Below are positions 41,111-51,214 of a DNA stretch of 64,000 nucleotides, piece after piece. The notes beneath the pieces were generated by a model, which saw only the letters and a program-made list of their open reading frames with translations, was not told the origin of the DNA and did not search any database. This DNA comes from Rhizobium sp. L43. GTDB taxonomy: Bacteria > Pseudomonadota > Alphaproteobacteria > Rhizobiales > Rhizobiaceae. The translations under genes and the position numbers were made by a program. Where the stretch lies: contig NZ_NWSQ01000004.1 in NCBI RefSeq assembly GCF_002531725.1, positions 124,001 through 188,000 on the forward strand, written 5' to 3'. How positions within the stretch are numbered: the first letter of the stretch is position 1; each line of letters begins with the position of its first letter.

Positions 41111-41264
41111 TATGTCTCCCCAGGCGGCAATTTGCCGTAGTAACCGAAATTGCTAGCGATTCCCGTTGCTTTTCACAAGCATTCAAAGCAATTAGGCAAG
41201 CTAGGCACGCTGCTTTTCAGTCAATTTTCTTGACTGCATTGAAATGGAATAGTTGTTTGCCCTC

Positions 41265-41888
41265 ATGACCGAGCAATCTGTATCGATTCGATCCATCTGC
41301 GTTTACTGCGGCTCCAGGCCGGGACGCGATCCCTCCCACATGGCGGCCGGGCGTGCTCTCGGACGAGAGATCGCCGAATACGGCCTGCGCCTCGTCTATG
41401 GCGGGGGTACCAAAGGCATCATGGGCGCGGTTGCCAGCGGCGTGCTTTCAGGCGGCGGTCAGGTGACGGGCATCATTCCCGAATTCCTGATCGATATGGA
41501 AGCGACTCGCCACTCGCTCGGTCAGCTTAACGAACTTATTGTAACGCCTGACATGCACGCGCGCAAACATACGATGTTCGAGCGCTCCGACGCCTTCGTA
41601 GCACTCCCCGGCGGCATCGGCACGCTGGAAGAGATCGTCGAAATCATGACCTGGGCGCAGCTCGGCCGCCACGAAAAGCCGATGGTCTTTGCTAACGTCA
41701 ACGGTTTCTGGGATCCGATGATGGAGCTGATGCGCCATATGACCGAAGAAGGCTTCCTGCACACCGCCCACCGGGTGCAGCCGCTCGTCGTCGACGAGAT
41801 CTCCGGCATCATTCCGGCGATCATGGCCCAGGCAGCCCAGCTCGCCGCCGACCGTGACGGCGAGGACGAGGTGATTTCGAAGATGTAG
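41265..41888 (+). CDS. LOG-family protein (TIGR00730), cytokinin-riboside phosphoribohydrolase type
   Basis: This 207-residue Rossmann-like protein has the LOG motif PGGIGTLEE (near residue 107) and the YGGGTKGIMG stretch near residue 46. LOG proteins remove ribose 5'-phosphate from AMP or cytokinin nucleotides. In rhizobia such proteins could release active cytokinins, but most bacterial members act on AMP. ATG 41265 begins MTEQSVSI; a nearby TTG four codons upstream is weaker. Confidence 0.88.
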   Translation: MTEQSVSIRSICVYCGSRPGRDPSHMAAGRALGREIAEYGLRLVYGGGTKGIMGAVASGVLSGGGQVTGIIPEFLIDMEATRHSLGQLNELIVTPDMHARKHTMFERSDAFVALPGGIGTLEEIVEIMTWAQLGRHEKPMVFANVNGFWDPMMELMRHMTEEGFLHTAHRVQPLVVDEISGIIPAIMAQAAQLAADRDGEDEVISKM

Positions 41889-41933
41889 GCGGCCGGGCGG
41901 TGCCGGAGCAGTCAAGCTTTTCTGCAGGCAAAT

Positions 41934-42869
41934 TCAGCTATATGCCGAGACAAGCTGCGTCACCTGAGATCGCATCCATCGGCTGGCGGGATCATTGTCA
42001 CTTGCCGTCGACCAGACCATCGATATCGGGCTTACCGTTAGATCGAGGGGAACGTCGGCGACCGCCAAGCCGAACAGGCCGGCATACCGCTTCACGATTC
42101 TGGTCGGCAGGGTCGCGATCAAGGGCGCTTCCAGAACAGCGGTCAGCACAGTCAGGAATTCCGGCGCTGCCACCGACACGTCAAGCCGCACATTGATCCG
42201 CTTCAATGCATCATCAATGCAGCCTTCGATGGCGTCTTTCTGTGAAACCAGTGCATGCTTCAGCCCGACATAGCTGTCTCGGTCCAATGTTTCGGGTAGG
42301 TCGAGAAGCTTCGGATTGTAGCAACACATCAGCGATTGCTCGAACAGCAGGCTCCGCCGATGTCTGTTGTTGCCGTCATCGTAGCAGCCGACGCCGAGAT
42401 CGATGACGTTGTCGTCCAGAAGCTTGTGGACCATCTCTGGATCGACCGCGCGGGCGAGTACCCTGATGCGGGGCGCCGTTTCGTTCAACATAGCGGCGAG
42501 GCGCGGCACGAGCAGCACCTCAAGCTCGCTGGAAAAGCCGATGCGGAATATCTGTTCGGCCTCACCGGGCTCGAAGGTCGATGGCGTTACGATCGCCTGC
42601 TGCGTACGGCTGAGGATCTGCTCGACGGCCTCGGCGAAACGCAGTGCGCGATGGGTCGGCTGCATGACTTGGCCGACACGCACGAACAACTCGTCCTGAA
42701 GCAATGTCCGAAGCGTTCCGAGATTGTGGCTCATGGCAGGCTGCTGGATTTTCAGACGAACAGCAGCCTTCGTCACGCTCCGCTCCTTCATCAGCGCATC
42801 GAATGCGACGAGCAGGTTCAGGTCGAAAGACCACAAATTGAAATGATCGATGGAGACAATTTCATTCAT
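41934..42869 (-). CDS. LysR-family transcriptional regulator
   Basis: This 311-residue protein has an N-terminal winged helix-turn-helix (about residues 15-75: LLVAFDALMKERSVTKAAVRL) and a substrate-binding domain from about 100 to 300. It is divergent from the metallo-beta-lactamase gene with only 88 bases between starts, the usual arrangement for a LysR regulator and its target. It likely controls the three-gene set to the right and itself (inference). Confidence 0.88.
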   Translation of the reverse strand: MNEIVSIDHFNLWSFDLNLLVAFDALMKERSVTKAAVRLKIQQPAMSHNLGTLRTLLQDELFVRVGQVMQPTHRALRFAEAVEQILSRTQQAIVTPSTFEPGEAEQIFRIGFSSELEVLLVPRLAAMLNETAPRIRVLARAVDPEMVHKLLDDNVIDLGVGCYDDGNNRHRRSLLFEQSLMCCYNPKLLDLPETLDRDSYVGLKHALVSQKDAIEGCIDDALKRINVRLDVSVAAPEFLTVLTAVLEAPLIATLPTRIVKRYAGLFGLAVADVPLDLTVSPISMVWSTASDNDPASRWMRSQVTQLVSAYS

Positions 42870-42957
42870 CGATTTGATCGTTTCACGAATTCTCCCTATT
42901 GTCCATAGCCATCAGACAGCGCTGTCCCGATCCCAGTTCAACTCGAAAGGAAGTTCC

Positions 42958-43851
42958 ATGAGCGATCTTGGAAAGGAATATCGTATTGCCGGCGTGGCGG
43001 TGAGAAAGGTGCAGGAGCAATATCTGCATAACGTGCCGCCGTCGTTTCTCTATCCGGATGCTGGTTCTGAGGAGATCAAGGCGGTCGAGCCGCGGCTTTC
43101 CGCCGTTGATATGGAAGAGGGCCGCGATGCCCTTGTGGTGAGCATACATAGTTGGCTTGTGAGAACGCCCGACCACGTCATCCTGATCGATACGAGCTCG
43201 GGCAACGACAAGGAAAGACCGCGTAACCCCAGCTTCCATCAACAGACTATCCCGTTTCTCGACAGGCTGCGCCAGGCGGGTGTCGGGCCGGAAGACGTCG
43301 ACTTCGTCATCAATACTCATCTCCACGTCGATCATTCCGGCTGGAATACCGTGCTTGAGGACGGAAGATGGATTCCCACCTTCAAAAATGCGCGCTACAT
43401 CTTCCCGCGCGCCGAGCAGGAATACTACTCGTCAACGGCAAGCCACAACGACGTCAACATTCCGAGTTCCGGCGTCTATGAAGACAGCGTGCGGCCCGTG
43501 ATCGAGGCGGGGCTTGCGGATTTCATCGACAGTGCTGGCGGTCCTTTCCTGGATCGCTTCACCTTCTTGCCGACACCTGGCCACAGCATCGGCCACATGT
43601 CCGTTCTGCTGGAATCGGACAATGAAGCGGCGATTTTTGCCGGCGATGTCATGCACCATCCGATCCAGGTGGAGCGTCCCGACCTCAACACGGTGTTCTG
43701 CGAATTCCTGGATCAGGCTGCCCAGTCCAGACGGCGTGTCCTCGAGCTCGCAGCCGATAATCGCGCCATTTACTTCTCCACGCATTTCCCCGGCTCGTCT
43801 GCTGGTTATGTGACCCGCGACGGCGAAAAATTCAGGTGGTCCTATGTCTGA
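42958..43851 (+). CDS. Metallo-beta-lactamase-fold hydrolase
   Basis: This 297-residue enzyme has the zinc site HLHVDH (His121, His123, Asp125, His126) preceded by VDFVINT, plus later HSIGHMS, GDVMHH and STHFPG motifs that supply other ligands. The subfamily resembles AHL lactonases and other quorum-quenching or ester-cleaving MBL proteins, but the substrate is not proven. ATG 42958 follows AAAGGAAG. It overlaps the next gene by 8 bases and is controlled with it. Confidence 0.87.
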   Translation: MSDLGKEYRIAGVAVRKVQEQYLHNVPPSFLYPDAGSEEIKAVEPRLSAVDMEEGRDALVVSIHSWLVRTPDHVILIDTSSGNDKERPRNPSFHQQTIPFLDRLRQAGVGPEDVDFVINTHLHVDHSGWNTVLEDGRWIPTFKNARYIFPRAEQEYYSSTASHNDVNIPSSGVYEDSVRPVIEAGLADFIDSAGGPFLDRFTFLPTPGHSIGHMSVLLESDNEAAIFAGDVMHHPIQVERPDLNTVFCEFLDQAAQSRRRVLELAADNRAIYFSTHFPGSSAGYVTRDGEKFRWSYV

Positions 43852-44851
43852 GAACAAGCTCGCATCTTCAGCTTTTGACGCAGGCGAGATCGTATTCGAC
43901 GAACATTACGTCGATAGCGGAACCGACGGCATCAAGCTCTATCTCCGCAATAAGCGAAGGAAAGATCACAAGACCTTTCTCGCCGAGAAGACAATCGTGA
44001 TGGTGCACGGGGCGACCTTCTCGTCCGGAAGTCTTTACGATGTTCCCTTCAACGGGATGTCCTTCATCGACTTCCTCGCTCATCAAGGCTTCGATGTCTT
44101 TGCGGTCGATGTCAGGGGCTATGGAAAATCGACCCGCCCGCCGGAAATGCAGGCGGAGCCCGATCTCAACCCGCCGCTTGTCGCTACCGACACCGGCGTC
44201 ACGGACTTCGCAACGGCTGTCGATTTCGTCCTTCGACTGCGCGGTCTGAAGGCTGTCAACGTCTTCGCCATGTCGTGGGGCGGCACCGTGGCCGGCGCAT
44301 ATGCTGCGCGCAACGGCGACAAGGTCGTCAAGCTCGCGCTGCTCGCGCCGCAATGGCTGAGCGACGTTCCCATCCCGATCGACCAGGGTGGCGTCCTCGG
44401 TTCCTACCGGCTTGTTCCGGCCCAGGCGGCCTTGGCGCGTTGGCTGAGCACTGCACCCGAGCACGCGCGTGAACGTCTTGTGCCGGAGGGCTGGTTCGAC
44501 CTCTGGGCCAAACTGACTCTTTCCGAGGAGACGTCGCAGGCTGACAGGGAGCAGGGCAAACTCCGAGCTACCAACGGGCCGATCCAGGATATCCGTACCT
44601 ACTGGCGGGCTGGAAATCCCTACTATCGGCCGGGCGAGATTCGCGCGCCGGTGCTGCTGTTGCACGGTGAATGGGACATCGACGTCCCGCTTGATCTGGC
44701 GCGGGCCTATTTCGAGCAGCTGACCGGCGCCTCCTACAAGCGATGGGTGGAAATCGGGGAGGCGACGCACCTCGCCCTGATGGAAAGCAACCGCATGCAG
44801 GCCTATTCCGAGGTTGCCCGCTTCTTCGATGAAACCTTCCAACCGGAATAG
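43844..44851 (+). CDS. Alpha/beta hydrolase
   Basis: This 335-residue protein has the alpha/beta-hydrolase fold: oxyanion region MVHGATFSS (residues 53-61), DVRGYGKS (89-96), a nucleophile elbow AMSWGG with Ser144, a late Asp in GEWDID near residue 277 and His in EATHLALM near residue 307. The Ala at the first elbow position is a tolerated variant. It overlaps the MBL gene by 8 bases, so the two are co-translated. A paired function with the MBL enzyme is plausible. The substrate is unknown. Confidence 0.82.
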   Translation: MSENKLASSAFDAGEIVFDEHYVDSGTDGIKLYLRNKRRKDHKTFLAEKTIVMVHGATFSSGSLYDVPFNGMSFIDFLAHQGFDVFAVDVRGYGKSTRPPEMQAEPDLNPPLVATDTGVTDFATAVDFVLRLRGLKAVNVFAMSWGGTVAGAYAARNGDKVVKLALLAPQWLSDVPIPIDQGGVLGSYRLVPAQAALARWLSTAPEHARERLVPEGWFDLWAKLTLSEETSQADREQGKLRATNGPIQDIRTYWRAGNPYYRPGEIRAPVLLLHGEWDIDVPLDLARAYFEQLTGASYKRWVEIGEATHLALMESNRMQAYSEVARFFDETFQPE

Positions 44852-44945
44852 AATTTGAACGAGCGGGCTCCGGGCTCAAATCCGGGGCCCGCTTCCTCCA
44901 TCAGCCTGCCGCAAGCTCGGCGCGGCCATCAAGTCACTCGTTCCT

Positions 44946-45878
44946 ATGACAATTCTGATCAACGCCATCTTGGATGCCGGACGAACTGCCGTCGACATCG
45001 CGATATTCACCTTTCTGCCGTTGATGATCGTGACATTCTCGCTGATGCGCTATCTCGAGGGTATGAGCGCCTTGCGATGGATGGCCGGCAAGGCCGACCC
45101 GCTCTTCCGATTGTTCGGTCTGGACGGTTTCGGAGCCTTGGCGATTATCCAGCTCAGCCTCGTCAGTTCGGCAGCCCCGGTCGCGGCCCTGTCGCTCATG
45201 GCGCACAAACGGACATCGGAGCGATTCATGGCCGCCGCCTTTGCCGCGGTGCTTGCGGCCGCGCCGGCAAATGCCAGTTTTCCGCTCGCAAGCCTCGGTG
45301 TCGATCCCGGCTTGATCATCGTCAACGGTCTTTGCGGAGCGCTTGTGGCGTCCACTCTCGCTTGCTGGATGATTGGACGCCGTTCCTTGTTTGAAACGGT
45401 CTGTTCCCGTGACACGGCCGATGACCACGTCGCCGCAAGACGCGATCTGCTGGCGGCAATCAACCGCGGTGGCGCAGATGCCGTTCGGGTCATTTCGGCA
45501 ATTCTGCCGGTGCTGGTGATCTCCCTGGAGATGGTGAGGCTAATCCAAAGCACAGGCGCACTTTCGGTCTTCACGTCCGTTGCGCAGCCGTTGCTTCAGT
45601 TGCTCGGCGTCTCGCAGCAGGATGTCCTGTTCTTGCTCACAAAGTGCCTGGCAGGGTCGAGCGCAGCGGTCACGCTGTTACTCGACCTCCACAAGGAGCA
45701 GGGCCTTGCGCCTGAGAAGATCATTCACGGGTCCGCATTTCTGCTAAACCCTCTCGACGTTCCCGGTCTTTCCATCCTGATCGCTTCGGTGCCGGCGCTC
45801 AGGCCGGTGGCAGGCGTCGCCGTCGTGAGCGCATTGGCCGGGATCGTTGTCCGCACGGCGCTGCTGTCCTGGTTTTAA
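44946..45878 (+). CDS. Nucleoside-recognition-domain (Gate) membrane protein
   Basis: This 310-residue integral membrane protein has about eight hydrophobic segments. Two halves each carry a Gate-type nucleoside-recognition stretch (SLMRYLEGMSALRWM and LPVLVISLEMVRLIQSTGAL, with SSAAPVAALSL between). Similar proteins occur next to various metabolic genes with unknown transport or sensor roles. It is 94 bases after the alpha/beta hydrolase on the same strand, so it is probably the last gene of the module. Confidence 0.65.
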   Translation: MTILINAILDAGRTAVDIAIFTFLPLMIVTFSLMRYLEGMSALRWMAGKADPLFRLFGLDGFGALAIIQLSLVSSAAPVAALSLMAHKRTSERFMAAAFAAVLAAAPANASFPLASLGVDPGLIIVNGLCGALVASTLACWMIGRRSLFETVCSRDTADDHVAARRDLLAAINRGGADAVRVISAILPVLVISLEMVRLIQSTGALSVFTSVAQPLLQLLGVSQQDVLFLLTKCLAGSSAAVTLLLDLHKEQGLAPEKIIHGSAFLLNPLDVPGLSILIASVPALRPVAGVAVVSALAGIVVRTALLSWF

Positions 45879-45953
45879 AGCCGACGCGCTCCGGCTTTCG
45901 ATGGTTCGATCGTTACGTAGCAACGACGACATCCGTTGGACAGGGACTCCGAA

Positions 45954-46868
45954 CTAGCGCCCGCGGCTACCCTTCAGCATCGACCAGCTATAGAGGAACA
46001 GCCCCGCCCAGATCAGCGGGAAGGCGATCATGCGCGCCGTGCTGAGCGGCTCGTGGAAGACGAAGACGGCAATCAGGAAGATCATCGTCGGCGCGATATA
46101 CTGCATGATGCCGATCGTCGACAGCTTCAAGAGCTTGGCGCCGTTGGCATAGATCATCAGCGGCACGGCGGTGATGACGCCGCAGCCGAGCAGCAGCGTG
46201 GTGTCGGCAAGACTTGTGCGGTAGAGATGGCCCTGGCCGCTGTCGAATTCGAGATAGAGGATGTAAAGCAGGGCCGGCCCGCTGAGGATCAGCACTTCGA
46301 GGAAGAAGCCCTGGTTCGGCCCGAGCGGCAGCGTCTTGCGGAACAGGGCATAAAAACCCCAGCTGATTGCCAGCGTCAGCGCCACCCACGGGATGCCGCC
46401 GCTATCGAATGCGAGAATGGCGACGGCAAGGGCGGCAAGCGCGATCGCCGCGATTTGCAGCGGCTGCAGCTTTTCCTTGAGAAACACCGCGCCGAGGAAG
46501 ATGCTGAACAGCGGATTGATGAAATAGCCGAGCGCCGCATCGAGTGAATGGCCGGCACCGATGGCCCAGACATAGGTGCCCCAGTTGACGGTGATCAGCG
46601 ACGCCGTCAGCGCCGCCATCGCCAGCATGCGCGGCGAGCGCAGCGCGGTCGCGATGTCCTGCGTACGCCCGAGCACGATCAGCACGATGCCTGCCAGCGG
46701 CAGCGACCAGACAATGCGATGGGCGATCACCTCGGCCGGCGGAATATGCGCCACCGCCTTCATGTAGATCGGCAGAAAACCCCAGAGCAGATAGGCCGTC
46801 AGCGCGAAGGCGAAACCACGCGGACTATCTTCGTTCTTGGCCAGCGGAACGGATACATCGGTCGACAT
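45954..46868 (-). CDS. rarD: EamA-family permease RarD
   Basis: RarD-type proteins have ten membrane helices in two EamA halves and export small metabolites. The 304-residue product starts with FALTAYLLWGFLPIYMKAVAHIPPAEVIAHRIVWS, the RarD hallmark region, and continues with SLITVNWGTYVWAIGAGHSLDAALGYFINPL and a late QYIAPTMIFLIAVFVFHEPLS. It is convergent with the Gate gene and is not part of the LysR module. Confidence 0.9.
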   Translation of the reverse strand: MSTDVSVPLAKNEDSPRGFAFALTAYLLWGFLPIYMKAVAHIPPAEVIAHRIVWSLPLAGIVLIVLGRTQDIATALRSPRMLAMAALTASLITVNWGTYVWAIGAGHSLDAALGYFINPLFSIFLGAVFLKEKLQPLQIAAIALAALAVAILAFDSGGIPWVALTLAISWGFYALFRKTLPLGPNQGFFLEVLILSGPALLYILYLEFDSGQGHLYRTSLADTTLLLGCGVITAVPLMIYANGAKLLKLSTIGIMQYIAPTMIFLIAVFVFHEPLSTARMIAFPLIWAGLFLYSWSMLKGSRGR

Positions 46869-47044
46869 CGGCTGTTTCCATCTTTGTTCTTCTTCTGATC
46901 CGGCCTAGCTTAAGCGCCGTGAATAGGCCAATTCATTTCGTTGAATGAAGGGTAAGGAGATTTGACGCGGATGGCGACGCGATGAACGGATGACAGCGGC
47001 CAAGGCCGGTATCGGCCTTGGCGCGGAGAACCGGCGGAATAGAC

Positions 47045-48823: not shown

Positions 48824-50252
<1,429 letters not shown>

Positions 50253-50256
<4 letters not shown>

Positions 50257-50741
50257 GCGGTCTCTCCGAGGGGCCAGATTTTCGTATCGTGGTCGGGGTG
50301 CTGATGATTGCTTGCCGCGATCGCGGTCTCGCGGTCGGGTGTTTCAGGCTCTGGTTCGAGCGGCAGGCCGTCCAGCGCATGAAACCAGGACATCTTGCGG
50401 CCGGTGTTCGATTGCGCCACCGGCTTGACCGCATCGGGATTATCCAGCGTGCCAAGCGTGATATTGATGAAATCAGTCCCCGGGATGTCGTAGAACAGCG
50501 GCGTCCCGCAATCGCCGCAGAAGCCGCGCCGCACCAGATCCGAGGATTGAAACCATTTCGGCGCGCCGCGCGTCAGGGTAAAATCGCTACGCTTCACGCC
50601 GGCCAGCGGCATGAAATAATTACCGGCCGCCTTCTGGCACATGCGGCAATGGCAAAGATGGGGGTAGCCGAGTTCGCCTTTGGCGCGATAACGCAATGCG
50701 CCGCACTGGCACCCGCCGCTTTTGTCCGTTTCCGTCGTCAT
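50253..50741 (-). CDS. GFA-family zinc protein 2
   Basis: This 162-residue paralog has GGCQCGA, LCHCRMCQK and GFCGDCGTP with all seven zinc-site cysteines, and a similar HPDHDTKIWP tail. It differs mainly in the middle, which probably faces the substrate. I chose ATG 50741 because it overlaps the GFA3 stop by ATGA; an in-frame start 7 codons upstream is less likely. The function within the family is unknown. Confidence 0.87.
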
Positions 50742-51214
50742 CCGAGCTCCTTGGGTGGCCATGCCTGCGTCTCATGATCGGGATGCTGATAGGAAACGAG
50801 TTCGTGCAGGAAAGAGCCCGCCGTCAGATCCGCCTCGGTTCTTTCTCCGGGCAGTTCGTGCAGATGATCGACGAATCCGATCTTGCCTTCCACACCCCAT
50901 TGAATGGTCGGCGGAAGCAATGATGGATCGTCGAAGGCGCCTGCGGCAATCGCCATTCCATCCGGTGCCTCATAGGTCAGCGGCGTGCCGCAATCACCGC
51001 AGAAACCGCGCTCGACGAAATTCGAAGAGCGGAACCGCTTCCGCTCTCCGCGCGCCCATTCGAACTCGGCGCCGCGCACCGAGACCAGCGGCGCATAATA
51101 GGCCCCGAACGCCTTCTGGCACATGCGGCAATGACAGATCGACGAATCCTTGAGTTCGCCGCTGACGCGAAAACGGATCGCTCCGCATTGGCAGCCGCCG
51201 GTGTAGGTGGTCAT
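50738..51214 (-). CDS. GFA-family zinc protein 3, first gene of the cassette
   Basis: This 158-residue paralog begins MTTYTGGCQCGA and has SICHCRMCQK and GFCGDCGTP, with the tail SYQHPDHETQAWPPKE. All zinc-site cysteines are present. As the most upstream gene it probably carries the promoter for GFA3-GFA2-GFA1-pip. No other gene precedes it before the inverted repeat at 51250. The substrate is unknown. Confidence 0.88.
   Translation of the reverse strand: MTTYTGGCQCGAIRFRVSGELKDSSICHCRMCQKAFGAYYAPLVSVRGAEFEWARGERKRFRSSNFVERGFCGDCGTPLTYEAPDGMAIAAGAFDDPSLLPPTIQWGVEGKIGFVDHLHELPGERTEADLTAGSFLHELVSYQHPDHETQAWPPKELG

Follow-up and report, generated by a model that had tools for sequence, protein, structure and literature searches.

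The window is a stretch of 64,000 nucleotides from Rhizobium sp. L43, in which an earlier note had drawn attention to four adjoining genes. A gene for a LysR-type regulator (41934-42869, minus strand; Pfam HTH_1 and LysR_substrate) is divergent from three genes on the plus strand. These encode an MBL-fold hydrolase (42958-43851; Pfam Lactamase_B, 89 bits), an alpha/beta hydrolase (ABH; 43844-44851; Pfam Abhydrolase_1, 80 bits), and a membrane protein with a Gate (nucleoside recognition) domain (44946-45878; PF07670, 36 bits against a cut-off of 29.6). The coordinates confirm the arrangement first described: a gap of 88 bases between LysR and MBL (42870-42957), an overlap of 8 bases between MBL and ABH (43844-43851), and then Gate, 94 bases beyond ABH. 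This last gap holds a stem-loop of 12 pairs (44863-44892, plus strand), which lies 3' of the ABH stop codon and lacks a T run. The MBL start is taken as the ATG at 42958, with AAAGGAAG upstream at 42946-42953; the first ATG in that frame is at 42850.

All four genes are under purifying selection, as judged by comparing the window with six loci. The dN/dS ratio is 0.04-0.08 for LysR (six pairs), 0.06-0.10 for MBL (five pairs), 0.075-0.145 for ABH (six pairs), and 0.15-0.30 for Gate (six pairs). A consensus scan of 41800-46000 returned no sigma-70-like promoters (1.2 expected) and four terminator-like sites (3.7 expected), the stem-loop after ABH not being among them. Rfam, searched over 41200-47000, gave no match at gathering score. 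A role in anti-phage defence was considered and dropped; at E 0.01, none of the four proteins had a match in PADLOC.

The module is bordered on the left by a LOG-family gene (41253-41888, plus strand) and on the right by a RarD/EamA gene (45954-46868, minus strand). These two are neighbours in all ten of the genomes compared that do not have the module there; the ten were hand-picked from 27, and adjacency was judged from the LOG and RarD matches themselves. Their matches stand 18-123 bases apart in nine of these empty sites and 479 bases apart in the tenth (L244). The four genes therefore behave as an inserted unit, and this unit occupies the gap between LOG and RarD in 15 of 18 genomes, the window included.

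Within Rhizobium, ABH is found in 24 of 120 genomes, and all four genes in 18 of those 24, although in one four-gene module (G250) the MBL gene is in two pieces. Here, the four genes stay together. The outcome that the note had named as refuting, their failing to do so in relatives, is seen only outside Rhizobium, where Gate drops out and LysR proves replaceable; the regulator varies by lineage, being LysR or, in Paenibacillus, an XRE-cupin protein.

What does persist is the pair of hydrolases, which is the core of the module. In a scan with one genome per species, the best 80 of 499 confirmed ABH loci were kept, and a relative of MBL lies directly upstream of ABH, on the same strand, in 80 of those 80. 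These best 80 come from Pseudomonadota, Bacillota (22 Paenibacillus loci), and one Armatimonadota metagenome-assembled genome. In a pooled set, which takes in 118 of 131 wide loci and counts some genomes twice because they arrived by two routes, 106 of 118 ABH loci are paired, and the 12 without MBL are all at most 44.5% identical. The 13 loci omitted from that set (L076-L088) are Rhizobium loci that also have the pair. Some of the per-genome scans scored only the best five to eight candidates in each genome.

The two enzymes have also been inherited together. In a tree of 68 ABH rows, hand-chosen from 119, the paired ABHs form one clade (97%). This clade includes L072, a decayed locus that has lost its MBL and half of its ABH and whose LysR is in pieces. 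Pairwise distances between ABHs follow those between MBLs (Mantel r 0.85 over 82 non-redundant loci, with none of 2000 permutations as high), and the values are 0.93 for LysR against ABH and 0.95 for LysR against MBL in the 35 of these 82 loci whose LysR is at least 44% identical; shared species history contributes to all three.

Conservation does not extend to the genes around the pair, which leaves it without a framing pathway. A DMT transporter gene stands beside the pair in 12 of the 22 Paenibacillus loci, and an MFS transporter gene in L058 and L069. A RidA gene is found beside the pair in seven of the 22 Paenibacillus loci, and a GST gene and an SMP-like gene in some lineages.

The MBL protein has the two-metal ligands of its superfamily (HxHxDH...H...D...H), and H121, H123, D125, H126, H209, D230 and H276 fall in invariant columns of 35 rows, the window's own among them. 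Among solved structures it comes closest to the organophosphorus, dihydrocoumarin and methyl parathion hydrolases (4le6, which we take to be OPHC2, together with 5hif and 8zu4). With these it shares fold and metal ligands; it differs in that some 240-250 residues align at no more than 84 bits, and in its linkage to ABH and LysR. The D-x-x-H that follows the bridging aspartate is common to the window's protein, 5hif, 7y7u and 4xuk, but not to 4le6. Its histidine, H233, the third residue after D230, is kept in at least 90% of the 35 rows; the position is presumably the one at which AiiA has its conserved lactonase tyrosine.

From these resemblances, MBL is probably a lactonase/esterase, although it could act as an esterase or a phosphotriesterase instead of a lactonase, and its N-terminus, which is not hydrophobic, suggests that it is probably cytosolic. 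The narrower suggestion that it is a lactonase of the N-acyl homoserine lactone (AHL) type is not supported, as the protein scores far under every NCBIfam cut-off for such enzymes: 88.1 bits against 360 for AidB (NF047979), its best match in that collection, and 51.6 against 375 for the AiiA type (NF045699). It likewise reaches only 59.2 bits against 325 for 4-pyridoxolactonase (NF047925) and 50 against 390 for the AttM model. No reported activity was found for a close relative.

For ABH, a proposed triad of S144, D278 and H309 is invariant in 41 rows, and a structure model has a pLDDT of 90. Sequence and model together agree with the Ser-Asp-His triad, on an alpha/beta fold, that is expected of a serine esterase or amidase. 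The fold searches do not fix the reaction, as they give many tied matches: esterases, lipases, C-C hydrolases, dehalogenases and epoxide hydrolases. The best VIA matches to the model, themselves tied, are StnA hydrolase (Z 29.5, rmsd 2.5, 275 aligned) and gastric lipase (Z 29.3, rmsd 2.9, 294 aligned); these and other alpha/beta hydrolases are alike in fold at an identity of 15-18%. A phmmer search of the PDB gave ABH no match at 1e-5.

A second kind of operon bears on what the pair might do. At four loci (L252, L332, L336 and L337), an MBL from the same group as the window's is accompanied by a PF01425 amidase as the second enzyme in place of ABH, in an otherwise like layout. The amidase overlaps MBL in L252 and L336 and is close by in L332 and L337; a LysR gene is divergent from MBL in L252 and L337 (annotated or by tblastn) and in L336 (by sight). 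One genome (G922) has an MBL-ABH and an MBL-amidase operon side by side. Such MBLs have other amide hydrolases as neighbours, with an AstE-type gene near the MBL of L205 and a creatininase next to the one in L246. A PLP-dependent Thr/Ser dehydratase is encoded close to L090. The MBL tree was built from 88 rows chosen by hand and rooted at its midpoint; strictly speaking, the "group" is therefore what lies to one side of a branch. Its 49 rows include exceptions: the annotated stretches of L206 and L247 show no second hydrolase, in L316 a same-strand RPE65-family gene stands in its place, and L335 has only a sub-cut-off alpha/beta-hydrolase match. Among 40 regions, 12 have an aconitase gene, three an amidase, two an FAA-hydrolase and one an ABH, counts that are not frequencies, as the hand-picking of the regions left aside Rhizobium and any ABH pair already known.

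The idea that LysR is linked to the module was borne out, both by the divergent gene and by a conserved site between LysR and MBL, which are two features of a LysR-controlled divergent operon. The candidate regulator site, CATCGATTTGATCG (42867-42880), begins with the LysR start codon (42867-42869); the remainder (42870-42880) is non-coding and forms a CGAT-TTG-ATCG inverted repeat. In 22 hand-picked intergenic regions from loci with a close LysR, ATCGATT is invariant, and ATCGATTTG is present in 21 of the 22, including those from Paraburkholderia, Advenella and Sphingopyxis. The window's LysR is 91-97% identical to its counterparts in the 17 other Gate-containing modules of Rhizobium. We infer that LysR would bind at this candidate site and induce MBL and ABH from it. 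Its nearest solved relatives are 2uyf (phmmer E 1.6e-36), 1uth and 1utb, all of which we take to be DntR. DntR binds salicylate-like aromatics.

Gate is a Rhizobium addition to the MBL-ABH pair. It occurs in 18 of the 120 Rhizobium genomes, every time adjoining the module's ABH, and is absent or a remnant in six of the 24 that have ABH; it was not seen in the non-Rhizobium loci compared. Thus, it is not needed for the core. In two modules, Gate differs from the window allele with a dS of 1.2, while the core genes show 0.4-0.5, which implies that its history is partly separate. The protein matches NF007811 (PRK10519, presumably YjiG) weakly, at 36 bits against a cut-off of 111, and has the Gate domain in common with such proteins at 310 amino acids against the 155 residues of that model. 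No Gate relative that was looked at had a known function, and an AlphaFold2 model built with nine close rows had a pLDDT of 36 and went unused. Gate stands beside the pair in one Rhizobium group only, and the proposal of import or sensing is not supported; the protein is possibly a transporter. The stem-loop before it has a fold z of -3.1 and pairs in 84.8% of cells in 14 rows, with weak covariation (two pairs changed on both sides, a number reached by 181 of 500 shuffles). It may serve to separate Gate expression from that of the enzymes.

These observations are best accommodated, and with somewhat better than even confidence, by a mobile, substrate-induced cassette for the LysR-controlled, cytosolic, two-step hydrolysis of one compound by MBL and ABH. 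LysR would bind next to its own start codon, at the candidate site, and, together with an inducer (the substrate or the first product), would turn on the divergent operon. MBL, as a two-metal hydrolase, would open a lactone or cleave an ester. ABH, its translation probably coupled through the 8-base overlap, would make the second cut, as a serine hydrolase, at an ester or amide bond in that same molecule. In Rhizobium, Gate would most likely carry substrate or product across the membrane. What is observed is the gene order, the conserved catalytic residues, the joint inheritance, the insertion as one unit and the conserved promoter site; a common compound for the two enzymes, which step comes first, and the transport are inferred. 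Against this reading stand the lack of conserved neighbours, the exceptions in the MBL group, the 12 unpaired ABHs, and the RidA, GST and SMP-like genes, for which it does not account. Two-step hydrolysis had been proposed before, and both the near-obligate pairing and the operons with an amidase agree with it; a signal as the substrate is not supported.

More specific forms of this two-step cassette name the compound. One, which is quite unlikely, is that an N-acyl homoserine lactone or similar N-acyl lactone is broken down, with MBL opening the lactone, ABH deacylating it as an amidase, and the amino acid being exported or used. The amide hydrolases beside MBLs of the group (the four amidases, the AstE-type gene and the creatininase) suit such a scheme, and an amino-acid product is hinted at by the RidA and DMT genes of Paenibacillus and by the dehydratase close to L090. 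Those amidases, however, are nearest to indoleacetamide hydrolase, and far under its cut-off (307 and 276 against 532). AidB is the best NCBIfam match and the solved relatives of MBL include an acylhomoserine lactonase (4zo2), but the shortfall against the AidB cut-off is large, and H233 stands where AiiA presumably has tyrosine. OPHC2 is without that tyrosine, and its AHL activity was undetectable (PMC3817169). Of 12 lactones tried, OPHC2 acted on only one, and its authors leave the native substrate open (PMC3817169), a point that counts against the general reading of MBL as a lactonase. In another form, itself unlikely, the compound is an aromatic lactone or aryl ester of plant or fungal origin that is broken down or detoxified, and a DntR/NahR-type LysR is the sensor. 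Here, the presence of 5hif, a dihydrocoumarin hydrolase construct, among the MBL relatives, the activity of OPHC2 on dihydrocoumarin (PMC3817169), the DntR likeness of LysR, and an MBL relative (39.7% identical) inside a Sphingobium muconate/maleylacetate operon all point the same way, as do the named hosts of the best 80 of 499 loci, many of which are plant-associated. Family likeness nevertheless leaves the inducer of LysR unfixed, no aromatic-degradation gene was noticed in consistent linkage with the pair, and a bare aromatic lactone would need no second hydrolase.

The two proteins might instead be separate detoxifying hydrolases under one promoter, each with its own substrate, as neighbours that are not conserved and transporters that vary would allow. 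We consider this improbable: the pairing is near-obligate across three phyla in the best 80 of 499 loci and has a single origin on the tree, and regulators have been exchanged around an intact pair, where free-standing genes would be expected to part. That the pair belongs to a known operon is close to refuted, and no known catabolic operon was matched. The candidates were vitamin B6 degradation, which uses 4-pyridoxolactonase and acetamidomethylenesuccinate hydrolase, and attKLM/blc, the Agrobacterium lactone operon. MBL does match 4-pyridoxolactonase and AttM weakly, and ABH aligns with 3kxp, the structure taken to stand for E-2-(acetamidomethylene)succinate hydrolase, at Z 25.3; the first two matches are far below cut-off, 3kxp is one among many tied folds, and the four module genes include no oxygenase or dehydrogenase, so both candidates were dropped. 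A keyword search of the literature (listings and the openings of abstracts) found no description of the gene set in print.

A shared task most likely underlies the near-inseparability of the two hydrolases in bacteria as distant from each other as Paenibacillus and Rhizobium. The cassette might, more speculatively and with little confidence, be one version of an undescribed, horizontally spread two-step pathway, present in at least three phyla, that dismantles a molecule with a lactone or ester and an amide, for example an acylated lactone signal. One group of MBL lactonases would then be the constant part, around which the other parts are exchanged: ABH or an amidase as second hydrolase, LysR or XRE-cupin as regulator, and Gate, DMT or MFS as transporter. 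The substrate might be a common plant, fungal or bacterial compound that soil bacteria need to break down, and naming it would assign a function to many gene pairs that now have no annotation. Through a reporter screen, the conserved site at the promoter gives direct access to inducers. In the 7.1 Mb genome, an exact ATCGATTTGATCG is found a single time; if two mismatches are allowed, the window has four copies of the 14-mer where 1.43 are expected, a mild enrichment only.

The earlier note had drawn a LysR gene divergent from three same-strand genes, and this four-gene arrangement is borne out on sequence and by Pfam in the window (G000:C36:124001-188000, within a 7.1 Mb genome). Here, LysR (41934-42869, minus strand) is separated by an 88-base gap (42870-42957) from plus-strand genes for an MBL-fold hydrolase (MBL, 42958-43851), an alpha/beta hydrolase (ABH, 43844-44851), and a Gate-domain (nucleoside recognition) membrane protein (Gate, 44946-45878). 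Both a ribosome-binding stretch and a similar N-terminus among relatives back the MBL start at 42958, and the MBL and ABH reading frames share 8 bases. The 94-base spacer between ABH and Gate contains a stem-loop of 12 pairs without a T run. An alignment of 14 loci keeps the stem-loop and shows weak covariation; 84.8% of its cells are paired, compared with 82.9% after shuffling and 31-63% after sliding.

The MBL-ABH pair is found in several bacterial orders. An ABH profile was scanned against one genome per species, and the best 80 of 499 confirmed relatives were used; the closest named among these, from Rhizobium chutanense and R. vallis, are 99% identical. In all 80 of these best loci, an MBL relative lies directly upstream on the same strand. 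Their hosts are Rhizobiales, Burkholderiales, Sphingomonadales, Rhodospirillales, Enterobacterales, Paenibacillus (22 loci), and a Capsulimonas MAG; the phylum of a locus titled Mycobacterium sp. KBS0706, which clusters with Inquilinus on the ABH tree, was left out of the count. LysR relatives (E 1e-5) accompany 51 of the same 80, while all 22 Paenibacillus loci carry instead a divergent XRE-cupin-type gene, with, downstream of the pair, a DMT transporter gene in 12/22 and a RidA gene in 7/22; for each of these three assignments one member was checked with Pfam.

A tree of 68 ABH rows chosen by hand unites every one of the 56 paired rows in a single clade (97%), whose one unpaired member, L072, is the wreck of a module. 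The remaining unpaired relatives fall outside, at least three with signal-peptide-like N-termini. Across 82 loci, the correlation between ABH and MBL distances is 0.85. We conclude that the pair had a single origin and is co-inherited, switching regulator and transporter. A conjugative plasmid of Klebsiella pneumoniae carries one LysR-MBL-ABH module (L093:5386-10188), flanked by an IS1 gene and, at its opposite end, an IS91 gene. In one lineage of five loci (L115:8165-9133 and relatives), a conserved protein of 323 residues, whose start resembles a signal peptide and which has no Pfam match at 0.001, is encoded downstream of the pair; the gene at the matching place in L092 is, by annotation only, a gluconolactonase.

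In Rhizobium, ABH is present in 24 of 120 genomes (E 1e-20) and Gate in 18 (the window and 17 other modules). The earlier note took the four genes as one module, and in these relatives they do stay together: Gate adjoins ABH, with MBL and LysR, in 18/18 Gate genomes, in one of which (G250) MBL is in two pieces. Gate is absent from the other six ABH-bearing genomes, one keeping a 32-residue remnant. An order-wide search of 249 genomes gave Gate in 2, both from this genus. In Rhizobium sp. R711, MBL reads in two overlapping pieces (L088:8116-9007, L106:6114-7005), as if frameshifted; the other three genes match across nearly their whole length.

The module lies between the same LOG (41253-41888, plus strand) and RarD/EamA (45954-46868, minus strand) genes in 15 of the 18. 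These two genes are adjacent in 10/10 module-free sites, chosen by hand out of 27 genomes searched for RarD, and modules also occur elsewhere, as on the conjugative plasmid pRspNXC24a. Thus, in Rhizobium the four genes seem to have been inserted as a unit. Gate in two modules located elsewhere (L089, L106) differs from the window's at dS 1.2-1.3, against 0.4-0.5 for LysR, ABH and, where measured, MBL; Gate has therefore probably been exchanged at least once, to judge from sequence. Gate is a putative transporter, given that it is a membrane protein, that in Rhizobium it occurs only next to ABH, and that other transporters stand beside the pair elsewhere. Distant Gate relatives on plasmids (33-39% identical) adjoin, among others, SDR and quinone oxidoreductase genes as well as remote MBL genes (sharing 27-29% identity with the window's), neighbours that do not settle the transporter role.

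The LysR-MBL gap carries a candidate operator. Among 22 intergenic regions chosen by hand, each with a close LysR, ATCGATT is invariant and ATCGATTTG is present in all but one (L131). In the window ATCGATTTG lies immediately outside the LysR start codon; in Burkholderiales that codon is elsewhere and the motif stays put. The 13-mer ATCGATTTGATCG has a single exact match in the whole genome, and a 14-mer containing it, with two mismatches allowed, matches four times in the window versus 1.43 expected, and so is not rare there.

MBL keeps all its metal ligands. Among solved structures, its closest relatives are organophosphorus hydrolases (4le6, 4o98), methyl parathion hydrolases, an acylhomoserine lactonase (4zo2), a dihydrocoumarin hydrolase construct (5hif), and an unnamed MBL hydrolase (7y7u); against named lactonase family models it scores far under every cut-off. 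ABH keeps Ser144, Asp278, and His309 in 41 rows. Its structure model (pLDDT 90) has two tied best fold matches, StnA and gastric lipase, and many more follow closely, so the fold search leaves its target bond unfixed. A hydrophobic N-terminus, looked for in both enzymes, is in neither.

MBL relatives not paired with this ABH were also surveyed. In an MBL tree of 88 rows chosen by hand, all 38 rows with ABH as partner fall on one side of a branch with 99% support, along with four whose partner is a PF01425 amidase, L246 beside a creatininase, L205 near an AstE-type deacylase, and five others. Of these five, L324 has a different alpha/beta hydrolase upstream and L335 a weak one under cut-off, and no adjoining same-strand alpha/beta hydrolase was seen in L206, L247, or L316. 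The MBL-amidase operons resemble the window module, with LysR divergent from MBL (L252, L336, L337) and the amidase overlapping it (L252, L336). In G922, MBL-amidase and MBL-ABH pairs lie within 5.5 kb, a LysR-like gene between them. The opposite side holds operons with an aconitase-family gene, often with an FAD oxidoreductase (14 rows), and the MBL of a muconate/maleylacetate operon in Sphingobium. These varied surroundings on both sides suggest a lactonase family recruited many times, whose members on the ABH-bearing side usually have a second hydrolase as partner; in six rows this is an amide hydrolase.

The module is most likely an inducible, LysR-linked, two-step hydrolysis of one compound, in which MBL would cut a lactone or ester and ABH a second ester or amide. 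An AHL as that compound is attractive, amide hydrolases occupying ABH's place in related operons and amino-acid-linked genes (RidA, DMT, Thr/Ser dehydratase at L090) lying nearby. However, the window MBL seemingly lacks the AiiA-type Tyr. The MBL enzyme OPHC2 lacks the Tyr of MBL lactonases, hydrolysed dihydrocoumarin as the sole lactone of 12, and gave no detected AHL activity (PMC3817169). The module's DntR-type LysR makes an aromatic lactone or ester no less likely as the substrate. Both substrates are, of course, special cases of two-step hydrolysis, so the confidences overlap. Keyword searches of mainly open-access literature found no description of this gene set; this is weak evidence of novelty, since subscription papers mostly lay outside it.

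The MBL-aconitase operon (L300-L302, L304-L306, L308, L309, L312, L315, L320, L321; L207, L248) is a separate conserved one, often with FAD-binding oxidoreductase and IclR genes, and frequently with a small isopropylmalate-dehydratase-like gene and an isocitrate lyase/PEP mutase-family gene. Across 40 hand-picked regions, the aconitase gene appears in 12 and the FAD gene in 9; the operon looks like an unnamed catabolic pathway. On a Sphingobium plasmid (L250:419-6723), an MBL relative belongs to an operon that also encodes muconate cycloisomerase, muconolactone isomerase, and maleylacetate reductase, and may serve there as the lactone hydrolase. Elsewhere in the window (49780-51214), three successive ORFs encode similar short proteins of 158-169 aa that carry CQCG...CHCRMCQK motifs, presumably, from the motif, tandem GFA-family copies.
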